Shown in pieces: positions 14,276 through 18,463 of a stretch of 64,000 nucleotides of DNA (its first letter is position 1; every line of letters starts with the position of its first letter). Made by a program: the position numbers and the translations under genes. Under the pieces are notes generated by a model. That model did no database searches and was not told the origin of the DNA. It worked only from the letters and a program-made list of their open reading frames with translations. The stretch is from Sulfitobacter litoralis. Its GTDB lineage: Bacteria > Pseudomonadota > Alphaproteobacteria > Rhodobacterales > Rhodobacteraceae. Location: positions 1 through 64,000 of the forward strand of contig NZ_FNJD01000018.1 of NCBI RefSeq assembly GCF_900103185.1, read 5' to 3'.

Positions 14276-15679
14276 ATGCGCCGCCCGTCATTCCTGATCG
14301 CCCCCACCTATGCTCAAAAGCTGACGCTCATTGCTGCCGTCCCTTTGGTGCTGGCAGTGACGGCGATTGCCTTTGTGGTGGCATTACAGGCTCGCGCCGT
14401 CGCGAACCGCGAAATCTCGACGTTAGAACAGCAACTGATCGACGCCAAAAAAGTCGAGCTGCGCAACTATGTCACCCAAGCACGCAATGGGTTTTACTTT
14501 GTCTACGGCTCTGCCTCGCCCGATGACGGGGCAGCAAAATCGCAGGTCGCACAGATCCTGTCAGCGATGATTTATGGCGAAGAGGGGCAATTCTTTGTCT
14601 ACGACTACGACGGCACCGCGCTCGTCAGCCCGCGCCAAACCGACCGGATCAACCGCAACTTTGCCGGCGAGACGGACAGCCAGGGCACTGCTGTGGTGGA
14701 CGAACTGATCCGCATCGCGCGCAATGGCGGCGGGTATCACACCTATATGTGGCCTAAACCGTCGACCGGTGAAGACGCACGCATGATCACCTATGTGACG
14801 TCGTTTCCAAGTTGGCAGTGGGCTGTGGGCACGGGTGTATTCATCGATGACGTGCTCGCCAGCGGTGCCACCGCCCGTTTCGACGTCTTGGCGCGGGTGC
14901 ATCGCACGTTCTTCTATATTGGCGCGATCACGGTCACCGCGCTTTTTCTGGTCTTCGGGTCGGGCATGCTGGTCAACCTGCGCGAACGCCGCCTTGCGGA
15001 TGCCAAGCTCAAGAAGCTCACCCAACGGGTATTTGATGCCCAAGAAGAAGAACGCGGGCGTGTGGCGCGCGAATTGCACGACGGGATCAGCCAGATTCTT
15101 GTGGGGGTGCGCTATGCGCTCGACAATGCGCGCCGCAGGCTTGAACGGGGCGACACCCGCGCAGCAGAGCCTTTGGCCAAGGGGATCGACAGCCTTGCCG
15201 AAGCCATCGCAGAAGTCCGCCGTATCAGCCGTGAGCTACGCCCCAGCATCCTTGATGATCTAGGCCTTGGTCCGGCGCTGAAAACTCTGGTAGAACAGTT
15301 TGCACTACGGACAGGCGTGAAATGCCAATTCAACACCGTGGTGTTTCGCAACCGTCTGGACGACGAGGCTAAGATTGCACTGTACCGGATCGCACAAGAG
15401 GCGCTGACCAATATCGAACGCCATGCCCGCGCCACAGAAGTTATTGTCGACCTGCGTGGACACCGGCAGGGGGCGACGCTCTCTATCTCTGACGACGGGT
15501 TGGGGCTATCCAAGACGCGCTCTGTTTCAGGCGGGTTGGGGCTGCGCAATATGCAAGAAAGGATTGAACAGCTTGACGGGACGCTGACGCTGCAAGCCTC
15601 GGCCCAAGGCGGCACCCAGATCACCGCCACCGTACCACTGACCCATATGCTGCGCCCGCCGCCGATCGCCCTGCCCTGA
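14276..15679 (+). CDS. Cache-domain sensor histidine kinase, NarL-type
   Basis: A 467-residue inner-membrane kinase. Transmembrane helices lie at about 16-37 and 212-233. Between them is a single Cache-like periplasmic sensor, with GEEGQFFVYDYDGTALVSPR and SFPSWQWAVGTGVFIDD. The cytoplasmic part has a HisKA_3 dimerisation helix, EEERGRVARELHDGISQ, with phospho-acceptor His268, then the ATPase motifs EALTNIERHA, ISDDGLGL and GGLGLRNMQERI. It is divergent from the TRAP operon and followed by its response regulator. Cache domains bind small organic ligands, which fits sensing of the transported acid, but this link is inference. Confidence 0.92.
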   Translation: MRRPSFLIAPTYAQKLTLIAAVPLVLAVTAIAFVVALQARAVANREISTLEQQLIDAKKVELRNYVTQARNGFYFVYGSASPDDGAAKSQVAQILSAMIYGEEGQFFVYDYDGTALVSPRQTDRINRNFAGETDSQGTAVVDELIRIARNGGGYHTYMWPKPSTGEDARMITYVTSFPSWQWAVGTGVFIDDVLASGATARFDVLARVHRTFFYIGAITVTALFLVFGSGMLVNLRERRLADAKLKKLTQRVFDAQEEERGRVARELHDGISQILVGVRYALDNARRRLERGDTRAAEPLAKGIDSLAEAIAEVRRISRELRPSILDDLGLGPALKTLVEQFALRTGVKCQFNTVVFRNRLDDEAKIALYRIAQEALTNIERHARATEVIVDLRGHRQGATLSISDDGLGLSKTRSVSGGLGLRNMQERIEQLDGTLTLQASAQGGTQITATVPLTHMLRPPPIALP

Positions 15680-15713
15680 CCCCGATGAACTTCCTCCTGC
15701 CGAAAGCAACCTC

Positions 15714-16376
15714 ATGCCCCCTTTAGCCTCTCCGCCATCCCAAATGATCAAGGTCATGATTGTCGACGATCACCCGATGGTCGCCGAAGGCATTCAGTCG
15801 ATCCTAGAAAGCTACGATGATATCGAGGTGGTTGGCTGTCTGCCCAACGGGCGCGCTGCCATTGATAGCGTCGCACAACTGGCACCGGATGTGATCTTGA
15901 TGGACCTCAACATGCCCGAGATCGGCGGACTTTCGGCGACTGAAATTTTGCTGGAGCGCGAACCTGATACCCGCATCGTGATCCTGTCCATGCACGATAA
16001 CCCCGAATATATCTCTTCGGCGCTGAGCCACGGTGCCTTGGGCTATATCCTCAAGGACGTACCAACCGACGAGATCAAGCTGGCGATCGATACGGTGATG
16101 GCGGGCAGTCGCTATCTGTGCACCGGTGCGCAAGGGTCGCTTGAACCCAAGGACGCAACGCGTGAATCCCTGACCGAGCGGGAGCAGACGATCCTGCTGC
16201 AGCTGGCACAAGGGAAATCCAACAAAGAGGTCGCGGTGACCTTGGACATCTCCGTGCGTACCGTCGAGACACACCGCAAGAACATCAAACGCAAGCTCGG
16301 CATCTCGTCGACTGCGGGGCTGACGCGTTATGCGATGGAACATGGGGTGTTGCAGGGAACGGGAGTCCGGCTTTAG
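15714..16376 (+). CDS. LuxR/NarL family response regulator
   Basis: A 220-residue two-domain regulator. The receiver shows the acidic pair in MIVDDHPMVAEG, the phosphorylated Asp64 in VILMDLNMPE and the late lysine in YILKDVP. The C-terminal GerE/LuxR helix-turn-helix reads LTEREQTILLQLAQGKSNKE, followed by ISVRTVETHRKNIKRKLG. It lies 34 bp after the kinase gene, its evident partner. Two ATGs are possible (15714 and 15744); neither has a strong ribosome site, and the longer form is given. Regulation of the divergent TRAP operon is the most likely output. Confidence 0.92.
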   Translation: MPPLASPPSQMIKVMIVDDHPMVAEGIQSILESYDDIEVVGCLPNGRAAIDSVAQLAPDVILMDLNMPEIGGLSATEILLEREPDTRIVILSMHDNPEYISSALSHGALGYILKDVPTDEIKLAIDTVMAGSRYLCTGAQGSLEPKDATRESLTEREQTILLQLAQGKSNKEVAVTLDISVRTVETHRKNIKRKLGISSTAGLTRYAMEHGVLQGTGVRL

Positions 16377-16492
16377 CGCCGCAAAACCGGTTTAAACGGC
16401 TACAATTTTTCAATAATTAGAAAACTTACGATTTCACGCAACAAATGAAAAGATTTTCAGCCCTCAGCGACACTTTTAGATCAAATATGCCA

Positions 16493-16519
16493 TTGACGCC
16501 CCTTTGCGCCGATCATAAT
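16493..16519 (+). promoter_or_regulatory. Promoter for the ilv leader and ilvBN
   Basis: TTGACG (16493-16498) and CATAAT (16514-16519), spaced 15 bp (16 if ATAATG is taken as the -10), resemble a housekeeping promoter. Transcription would begin near 16526, just before the ribosome site of the leader peptide, which makes a compact leader with all attenuator parts downstream. Confidence 0.6.
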
Positions 16520-16549
16520 GTCCATGGACGCAACGAAGGGCCTTTGGTT

Positions 16550-16612
16550 ATGACAGACCTAGCGATTACAGATATCGTCGTCATTCTAAGACACACGCGC
16601 ATGGGCCGGTAA
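16550..16612 (+). CDS. ilvBN leader peptide (attenuation peptide)
   Basis: A 20-codon frame with ATG at 16550 and TAA at 16610, reading MTDLAITDIVVILRHTRMGR. Codons 9-13 are Ile-Val-Val-Ile-Leu, with further Leu4 and Ile6, exactly the amino acids made by the pathway of the downstream genes. GAAGGG at 16534-16539 is a well-spaced ribosome site. The end of the peptide contains GCGCATGG, which can pair with CCATGCGC before the terminator. It is far too short to be found by ordinary gene calling. Ribosome stalling at the branched-chain codons would relieve termination. Confidence 0.88.
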   Translation: MTDLAITDIVVILRHTRMGR

Positions 16613-16666
16613 CGGCAGACCATACCAGTCACCATGCGCCCCCGTCAAAATCGGGGGCTTTTTTTT
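16597..16666 (+). promoter_or_regulatory. Transcription attenuator of ilvBN (antiterminator and terminator)
   Basis: Antiterminator: GCGCATGG (16597-16604, inside the leader peptide) is an exact complement of CCATGCGC (16632-16639). Terminator: GCCCCCG (16638-16644), loop TCAAAAT, CGGGGGC (16652-16658), then eight T. The two structures share bases 16638-16639 and so compete. A ribosome that finishes the leader covers GCGCATGG and the terminator forms; a ribosome stalled on the Ile/Val/Leu codons leaves it free. A small GCCG-GTAA-CGGC hairpin at 16605-16616 spans the leader stop. Confidence 0.85.
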
Positions 16667-16711
16667 GCGCAACGCACCTTTTGTTAAACCACCGCCTGAC
16701 GGAGCACCAAG

Positions 16712-18463
16712 ATGACACGTAAAATGACCGGAGCGAAGATGATCGTTCAAGCCCTGATTGATCAGGGTGTCGATACCGTATTTGGCTATCCCGGCGGCGC
16801 TGTCCTACCGATTTATGACGAGGTGTTCCAACAAAACAGCATCAAACACGTGTTGGTGCGCCACGAACAAGGCGCGGTTCATGCCGCCGAAGGCTATGCG
16901 CGCTCGACTGGGAAACCGGGCGTTGTGCTTGTGACCTCTGGCCCCGGTGCCACCAACGCTGTGACTGGTCTGACGGACGCCTTGCTCGATTCCATTCCGC
17001 TTGTGGTTCTGACGGGGCAGGTGCCGACCTTTATGATCGGCTCTGACGCCTTTCAGGAGGCCGACACCGTGGGCATCACCCGCCCCTGCACCAAACACAA
17101 TTGGCTGGTGAAAGAGACCGACAAACTGGGCGCCGTCCTGCACGAGGCATTCCACGTGGCCACCAGCGGACGCCCCGGTCCAGTTCTTGTCGACATCCCC
17201 AAGGATGTGCAGTTCGCCACGGGGCAATATACCCCCAAGAAACCGTCGACCTCGCATTATCAACCGCCCGTCAAAGGCGACATGACCGAGATCACCGCAC
17301 TGGTAGAAGCCATCGAATCTGCCAAACGCCCTGTCTTTTATACTGGCGGCGGCGTCATCAACTCTGGTCCCGCGGCCTCGCAACTGCTACGCGAATTAGT
17401 CGAGGCGACAGGCTTTCCCATCACCTCTACGTTGATGGGCCTTGGCAGCTATCCTGCGTCGGGCGACAAATGGCTGGGAATGCTGGGGATGCACGGTCTT
17501 TACGAGGCCAATATGGCGATGCACGACTGCGATCTGATGATCAACATCGGCGCGCGTTTTGACGACCGTATCACCGGCGTTGTCGATCTGTTCAGCCCGA
17601 AGTCGAAGAAAGCGCACATCGACATCGACCCATCGTCGATCAACAAGATCATCCGTGTCGACATTCCTATCGTCGGTGACGTGGGCCATGTGCTGGAAGA
17701 CCTGCTGAAAGTCTGGAAATCCCGCGGCCGCAAGACCAACTCCGACGCGGTTGCCAAATGGTGGAAACAGATCGAGGAATGGCGCAATGTTGACTGCTTG
17801 AAGTTTGAACAAACAGGCAAGATCATCAAACCGCAATACGCGCTCTCGCGGCTTGAGGCGCTGACCAAGGATCACGACCGCTATATCACGACCGAAGTGG
17901 GCCAGCACCAGATGTGGGCGGCACAATACCTGAATTTCGAAGACCCGAACCGCTGGATGACATCCGGTGGGCTTGGCACGATGGGCTACGGCTTTCCTGC
18001 CTCCATCGGTGTGCAGATGGCCCACCCCGACGCGCTGGTGATTAACGTCGCGGGCGAAGCGTCGTGGCTGATGAACATGCAAGAAATGGGCACCGCGATG
18101 CAATACGGCCTGCCGGTCAAACAGTTCATCCTGAACAATGAACGTCTGGGTATGGTACGACAGTGGCAGGAATTGCTGCATGGCGAGCGTTATTCCCAAA
18201 GCTGGTCTGAATCCCTGCCCGACTTTGTAAAGCTGGCAGAGGCTTTCGGGGCCAAGGGCATCATTTGTTCCGACCCCGATGATCTGGACGATGCCATCCT
18301 GGAGATGTTGAACTACGACGGCCCCGTTATCTTTGACTGTCTGGTGGAAAAACATGAAAACTGTTTCCCAATGATCCCGTCGGGCAAAGCCCACAACGAT
18401 ATGATGCTGGCGGGTGCCGGTACGCAGGGTGTGATCGACGCCAAAGGATCGGTCTTGGTCTAA
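16712..18463 (+). CDS. ilvB: Acetolactate synthase, large (catalytic) subunit
   Basis: A 583-residue thiamine-diphosphate enzyme that condenses two pyruvates, or pyruvate with 2-oxobutyrate, in the first common step of valine, leucine and isoleucine synthesis. Visible features are the N-terminal FGYPGGAVLPIYDE motif, RHEQGAVHAAEGYARSTGKP with the catalytic glutamate, the central FAD-domain stretch GMLGMHGLYEANMAMHDCDL, and the cofactor region VINVAGEASWLMNMQEMG. The usual GDG/GDA triplet is GEA here. The start has GGAG upstream and follows the attenuator. The regulatory subunit gene lies 74 bp downstream. The symbol ilvI is equally usable. Confidence 0.96.
   Translation: MTRKMTGAKMIVQALIDQGVDTVFGYPGGAVLPIYDEVFQQNSIKHVLVRHEQGAVHAAEGYARSTGKPGVVLVTSGPGATNAVTGLTDALLDSIPLVVLTGQVPTFMIGSDAFQEADTVGITRPCTKHNWLVKETDKLGAVLHEAFHVATSGRPGPVLVDIPKDVQFATGQYTPKKPSTSHYQPPVKGDMTEITALVEAIESAKRPVFYTGGGVINSGPAASQLLRELVEATGFPITSTLMGLGSYPASGDKWLGMLGMHGLYEANMAMHDCDLMINIGARFDDRITGVVDLFSPKSKKAHIDIDPSSINKIIRVDIPIVGDVGHVLEDLLKVWKSRGRKTNSDAVAKWWKQIEEWRNVDCLKFEQTGKIIKPQYALSRLEALTKDHDRYITTEVGQHQMWAAQYLNFEDPNRWMTSGGLGTMGYGFPASIGVQMAHPDALVINVAGEASWLMNMQEMGTAMQYGLPVKQFILNNERLGMVRQWQELLHGERYSQSWSESLPDFVKLAEAFGAKGIICSDPDDLDDAILEMLNYDGPVIFDCLVEKHENCFPMIPSGKAHNDMMLAGAGTQGVIDAKGSVLV

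Follow-up and report, generated by a model that had tools for sequence, protein, structure and literature searches.

Layout of the ilvBN leader region

A short open reading frame rich in branched-chain codons, followed by an intrinsic terminator, precedes the acetolactate synthase genes ilvBN in a stretch of 64,000 nucleotides from Sulfitobacter litoralis (contig NZ_FNJD01000018.1, positions 1 to 64,000, forward strand), hereafter called the window. The locus raises the question of whether transcription of ilvBN is attenuated through translation of this leader and, if so, how the antiterminator and the terminator come to exclude each other. The features of the region, in window coordinates, are the following.

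16493..16519, + strand: promoter, TTGACG (16493-16498), 15-bp spacer and CATAAT (16514-16519), read from the sequence
16535..16540, + strand: Shine-Dalgarno-like GAAGGG of the leader peptide, read from the sequence
16550..16612, + strand: leader peptide ORF of 20 residues, MTDLAITDIVVILRHTRMGR followed by a stop codon, read and translated
16574..16588, + strand: control codons Ile-Val-Val-Ile-Leu within the leader ORF, I/L/V class kept among relatives
16597..16604, + strand: 5' arm of antiterminator P1, GCGCATGG, in the last leader codons, pairing with 16632-16639
16605..16616, + strand: hairpin P2, GCCG-GUAA-CGGC, whose loop contains the stop codon UAA, supported by covariation
16632..16639, + strand: 3' arm of antiterminator P1, CCATGCGC, its last two bases common to the terminator, from pairing and covariation
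16638..16666, + strand: intrinsic terminator, stem GCCCCCG/CGGGGGC (16638-16644/16652-16658), loop 16645-16651 and eight T at 16659-16666, from sequence and covariation
16712..18463, + strand: ilvB, acetolactate synthase large subunit, above cut-off for NCBIfam TIGR00118 and NF006581
18538..19098, + strand: ilvN, acetolactate synthase small subunit, above cut-off for NCBIfam TIGR00119

An earlier note on this DNA had listed a promoter and ribosome site, a leader peptide of 20 residues, an antiterminator stem of 8 bp and a terminator ending in eight T. Direct reading found every one of them in its place, with the upstream antiterminator arm in the final leader codons (16597-16604 inside the ORF 16550-16612), and the presence of a complete set of ilvBN attenuator elements is confirmed. 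The last control codon, which ends at 16588, is separated from the P1 5' arm by 8 nt in the window. The RNA fold of 16530-16720 was more stable than that of shuffled sequences (z -3.84, 0 of 200 shuffles as low). The downstream ilvB and ilvN, which pass curated NCBIfam cut-offs, code for products that make the very amino acids the leader would sense. At its length, the leader peptide would probably escape usual gene calling, and the window promoter was absent from the promoter-scan list because that scan requires spacers of 16-18 nt. Upstream of ilvBN, at 14276-16376, lies a two-component pair which is MctS/MctR-like but stands under the curated cut-offs.

Conservation of the leader and terminator upstream of ilvB

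We collected 110 ilvB upstream regions, made up of 80 named loci (the best 80 of 591), 29 loci of the own genus (the best of 55 ilvB-bearing genomes among 58) and the window, and scored them for a joint signal, defined as a short ORF with at least four I/L/V among five codons near its end followed by a terminator within 90 nt. The joint signal was present in 107 of the 110 regions, the window among them; 1580 dinucleotide shuffles made from 79 of those regions gave none. The terminator by itself was found in 109. The three regions that lacked the joint signal were L031, which is cut by a contig end, L045 and L060. For the close alignment A1, 106 of the 110 regions fitted the selection pattern (L010, L031, L045 and L073 did not), and 79 rows were left once near-identical ones had been removed. 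The pattern asks for a terminator and holds CATGG and most of the core segment CCATGCGCC constant, so that the invariance of these letters in A1 is partly built in. In the alignment of ilvB upstream regions that the earlier note had proposed as a check, the reading frame and the run of branched-chain codons were both conserved.

A covariance model, R1, was built on the 79 non-redundant rows of A1. It matched 180 of 196 genomes sampled from the order, all of them from one family, and 83 of 87 genera, with ilvB directly downstream in all 56 R1 loci checked. The own genome gave a single match, the next best having an E-value of 2.4. The 16 genomes with no R1 match all carry ilvB and belong to five genera (g6, ten; g8, two; g53, two; g56, one; g67, one). 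All ten sampled g6 genomes (L159, L161, L162, L166, L167, L169 and L171-L174) lacked the combination of leader and terminator before ilvB, and members of g8, g53, g56 and g67 exhibited divergent leaders with terminators under a looser criterion.

Of 67 ilvB upstream regions from members of the class outside the family, none had the joint signal (0 of 63 in a first scoring). This class survey detected ilvB at 1e-150 in 79 of 115 genomes. Thirty of these were taken as loci, two of them inside the family, and upstream stretches were taken for 40 more, leaving out nine (G269 and the eight lowest-scoring). The 63 regions of the first scoring remained after four stretches with no located start and one short stretch had been dropped. 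Since gene starts had rested on about 20 residues, the scoring was repeated with the strand and place of the ilvB match, which gave 67 scored regions and one short stretch dropped.

The promoter is conserved as well. All 79 non-redundant relatives carry TTGAC no more than 75 nt before the leader start, in a search for TTGAC only, for which an arithmetical estimate gives about 7% per sequence by chance. A CATAAT box was present in 38 of the 79 relatives. The best-matching spacer measured 15 bp in 57 relatives, 17 in 21 and 16 in one. We observed that the usual best spacer of this conserved promoter, 15 bp, is shorter than the customary 17. A purine-rich ribosome site was found in 79 of 79 relatives with a permissive motif set, a count that is not an independent test because the same motif set also chose the start codon.

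Form and codon use of the leader peptide

The usual leader has 15 residues, of the type MTxLVVIVGxTRMGR, and 15 residues plus stop were found in 70 of 79 rows. The window leader, five codons longer, shares its form with L088-L090 and is a lineage-specific longer form of this peptide. By eye, the five-codon lengthenings in the window lineage (16550-16573) and in L096 (MTSLVVTHLVVIVGHSRMGR) resemble in-frame partial duplications.

Leader codons 4 to 8 were I, L or V in 79, 78, 78, 76 and 76 of the 79 relatives, respectively (387 of 395 cells), and over the 79 rows every control position used several codons and switched among the three amino acids. Preservation of the I/L/V class while the residues switch would be expected of an operon that serves all three amino acids. 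Codon choice in the leader was strongly skewed. Leucine was coded by CTA in 67 of 100 cases, compared to 2.1% in 79 ilvB genes and 4.7% in 33 long ORFs of the window; valine was coded by GTA in 87 of 227 cases and glycine by GGA in 49 of 58, each compared to 6-7% elsewhere. According to passages of PMC1183508, the leu attenuator of Salmonella uses CUA as its control codon and became less sensitive when CUG replaced it. In the leader studied here, the bias may partly serve the avoidance of structure, since glycine, which is uncontrolled, also takes the rare GGA, and this counts against explaining it by tRNA supply alone.

Covariation in the three helices

As modelled, P1 pairs 16597-16605 with 16631-16639; the window has eight of these pairs, the ninth being G-A. 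In the close set A1, seven of the nine P1 pairs were invariant over 79 rows, partly through row selection, and the covariation score was matched by 58 of 500 shuffles for P1 and P2 and by 7 of 500 for the terminator. The A1 score is unremarkable because little varies in this close set. We also used a wider set, A2, fitted to the model structure from 71 sources chosen to include divergent rows; 65 of them matched and 63 were distinct, copies upstream of transporter genes (see below) included. In A2, 11 of 17 pairs had changed on both sides, in 35 cells, compared to 8.1 ± 2.5 in shuffles (0 of 500 as high) and to 10 cells at most in a control with the partners slid. Covariation was present in P1, P2 and the terminator, with two-sided changes in five of the nine modelled P1 pairs and, in some rows, in all three modelled P2 pairs (16606-16608 with 16613-16615). 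The compensatory changes that the earlier note proposed to look for in both stems thus exist. According to codon counts, the P2 loop reads GUAA or GUGA, a G and then the stop codon, in at least 76 of 79 rows; it is a GNRA-type tetraloop.

These data bear on two alternatives. The first supposes a plain terminator of a short transcript next to a chance ORF, with no translational regulation. The conservation of the frame, of the codon class, of the position of the stop and of the pairing makes this explanation hardly credible. According to the second, the terminated leader would serve mostly as a small RNA acting in trans, or the peptide itself would act in trans, and the nearly invariant GCGCATGGGCCGGTAACGG would be kept for that function. 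Conservation of GCGCATGGGCCGGTAACGG indeed exceeds the needs of pairing, with the seven constant P1 pairs mentioned above, and a precedent is described in portions of PMC10117765 and PMC7298713 for rnTrpL/peTrpL of Sinorhizobium, an alphaproteobacterium. Nevertheless, part of the core was held fixed by A1 row selection, GCGCATGGGCCGGTAACGG does vary in more distant relatives, where its pairing is preserved, and the element stands immediately before ilvB in each of the 56 R1 loci checked. We therefore regard a main function in trans as improbable.

Proposed competition between antiterminator and terminator

P1 and the terminator of the window overlap by two bases only (16638-16639). The overlap comprises two bases in 57 of the 79 relatives and three in the other 22. 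If the contested bases are assigned to P1, the mean computed energy of the terminator changes from -14.4 to -7.1 kcal/mol. For each of the two shared bases, pairing with either partner is possible in 61 of the 63 A2 rows. In four of the 63 rows (L255, L291, L278 and L279), the first shared base is A in place of G, and both partners are then U. These G-to-A rows support the predicted use of the shared base in both helices, with the reservation that U often occupies the two partner positions anyway (17 and 22 of 63 rows) and that L278 and L279 are near-identical. At the level of sequence comparison, then, the elements themselves, the conservation of frame and codon class, the pairing and the shared bases are all established.

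By calculated energies, the exclusion of one stem by the other is weak. The minimum-energy fold of the window combined a 6-bp remainder of P1 with the entire terminator. Full P1 (eight pairs) with a shortened terminator gave -31.5 kcal/mol and P1 of six pairs with the whole terminator -33.0 kcal/mol, both states including P2 and a putative small third hairpin at 16618-16630. Since the full P1 state is not the more stable one, P1 must act by being first or by its position. When 16597-16644 was folded, that is before the 3' arm of the terminator exists, the complete P1 was obtained. The overlapping terminator claimed in the earlier note is thus real in that shared bases exist, but the overlap is of just two or three bases and stability alone cannot give exclusion.

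An alternative is that the attenuator works as such, but that P1, instead of taking bases from the terminator, exerts a steric or kinetic effect as an adjacent hairpin at the RNA exit channel, the base overlap being incidental. The equilibrium fold, which permits a 6-bp P1 together with the whole terminator, is in line with this, as are four of 14 family loci viewed singly (L154, L163, L170 and L175), where the best stem beside the terminator did not overlap it. Against it stand the overlap of two or three bases in 79 of 79 core relatives, although the row pattern fixes part of the core, and the fit of the shared bases to both partners in 61 of 63 rows, G-to-A changes included. An incidental overlap appears unlikely to us, though it deserves more weight than action in trans. 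Longer alternative antiterminators in the divergent L158, L160, L164 and L168 were set aside, being helices of single sequences chosen by energy alone.

No upstream pause hairpin competing for the P1 5' arm was detected; the mean pairing probability was 0.535, compared to 0.552 with shuffled upstream sequence. A pause (1:2) hairpin, as in E. coli trp, synchronises ribosome and polymerase and is not essential to an attenuator family.

Proposed mechanism

The element is very probably a ribosome-mediated transcription attenuator of ilvBN that senses the charging of Val, Ile and Leu tRNAs, and the comparisons above support the attenuator interpretation of the earlier note, with competition for the shared bases as the preferred switch. 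Judging from the promoter boxes, transcription would start about 25 nt before the leader ORF. With ample charged tRNA, a ribosome at the stop codon would cover 16597-16604, the terminator at 16638-16658 would form and transcription would end. Under shortage of Ile, Val or Leu, the ribosome would be expected to stall on 16574-16588 and to leave the P1 5' arm free, and the free arm could fold into P1 before the terminator is made. The ribosome footprint reaches about 15 nt from the P site; with this value, a stalled ribosome would leave 16597 onwards free or nearly so, and a ribosome at the stop codon would cover the arm. By holding two basal bases of the terminator, P1 would both weaken the hairpin and set it 2 nt further from the T run, and the weakened terminator would allow read-through into ilvBN, which is the presumed direction of regulation. 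The model supposes that the loss of two or three basal pairs is sufficient to stop termination.

Copies upstream of Bcr/CflA-type efflux genes

The same module of leader, P1 and terminator was found upstream of Bcr/CflA-type efflux MFS genes in 12 loci (L274-L281, L290, L291, L293 and L295). The 30 genomes with more than one R1 match were searched again, which gave 33 second sites, 14 of which were read. The eight strongest (L274-L281, from eight genomes of six genera) precede an MFS transporter gene, and R1 E-values of the four best transporter-upstream sites ranged from 2.4e-21 to 1.8e-13. On the basis of the ORFs behind them, the six weak second sites L282-L287 (E 0.0024 or worse) were considered unrelated. 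The transporters of L274-L281 are 53-100% identical to that of L276, which passes the cut-off of the Bcr/CflA subfamily (TIGR00710). A family-wide search with the L276 protein gave a match at 1e-60 in 108 of 120 genomes, and R1 matched four of the 30 best transporter loci (L290, L291, L293 and L295), each time before the transporter gene. The own genome holds just a 40%-identical relative, and the contig that carries it gave no R1 match at E up to 10.

A tree was built from 38 transporters. A weakly supported branch sets off 16 of its rows, and all 12 module-bearing transporters are among them. Presence of the module required three label changes on the tree, compared to a mean of 10.5 with shuffled labels (0 of 500 as low). 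A single label change was obtained in no bootstrap tree of the transporters, and a single origin of the transporter copy is weakened. The transporter leaders (n = 12) contained four or five I/L/V out of five in six cases, three in two and two in four.

We tentatively suggest that the ilvB attenuator is a re-usable module of the family, and that a homologous copy of it, acquired on one or a few occasions and since lost from some lineages, may control a subfamily of Bcr/CflA-type efflux transporters. With its branched-chain run partly decayed, export might answer to valine shortage or to general ribosome stalling, through a minimal switch that has its stop codon in the antiterminator tetraloop and competes for two or three bases. 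Among the matches listed in open-licence PubMed Central, no description of the transporter copy was found.

Comparison with known attenuators

No Rfam ilvB motif fitted the region of the window at E up to 10. A search of 16450-16760 at E up to 10 gave eight weak matches to unrelated families, none credible, and at gathering score three tRNAs were the only matches over the whole window. In open-licence PubMed Central, no title among the matches listed concerned a Rhodobacterales ilvB leader; Vitreschak 2004, on proteobacterial attenuators, could contain it, and passages of PMC2864571 and PMC2965389 do not mention ilvB. As far as could be seen, the element is a real, conserved attenuator, ordinary in kind and new as a defined family.

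The closest known system by description is that of Caulobacter crescentus, whose ilvBN is, according to a passage of PMC4117421 citing Tarleton, Malakooti and Ely 1994, attenuated by means of a leader with tandem Ile and Val codons and a rho-independent terminator, low aminoacyl-tRNA leading to read-through. By this description, operon, bacterial class and leader/terminator logic are the same. Common descent with the Rhodobacterales element is not implied, with the joint signal in 0 of 67 class regions outside the family.

The Corynebacterium ilvB-II motif, for which passages of PMC10272879 report an upstream ORF motif with a reporter-tested response to rich versus minimal medium, resembles the present element in its ORF rich in branched-chain codons and in an antiterminator that takes the lower terminator stem. 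It belongs to another phylum, and it differs from the present element, whose antiterminator captures two or three bases at the foot of the terminator's left shoulder and encloses the stop codon. The ilvB-OMG and Leptospira ilvB motifs are described, in portions of PMC10272879 and PMC8632094, as likewise structured ilvB leaders with upstream ORFs rich in branched-chain codons. Within the Rhodobacterales, the cysS attenuator, motif uORFC-8-2, is presented in a part of PMC8632094 as another order-wide candidate for ribosome-mediated attenuation; with its tandem Cys codons before cysS, it differs in both gene and signal.

The enterobacterial trp, ilv and leu attenuators are alike in having control codons and alternative hairpins, with CUA as the leu control codon according to passages of PMC1183508. 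Unlike in these systems, no pause hairpin was detected here upstream of the antiterminator arm. The overlap between antiterminator and terminator is larger in the classical enterobacterial attenuators than the two or three bases found here. The small overlap is unusual, and the second home before efflux genes is unexpected. The element provides a family-wide, sequence-defined attenuator of a core biosynthetic operon in a large, mostly marine bacterial group. The copy before efflux genes suggests that such a module is re-usable for a gene outside amino acid synthesis, and the competition for two or three bases offers a clean test of the minimal overlap that an antiterminator needs.
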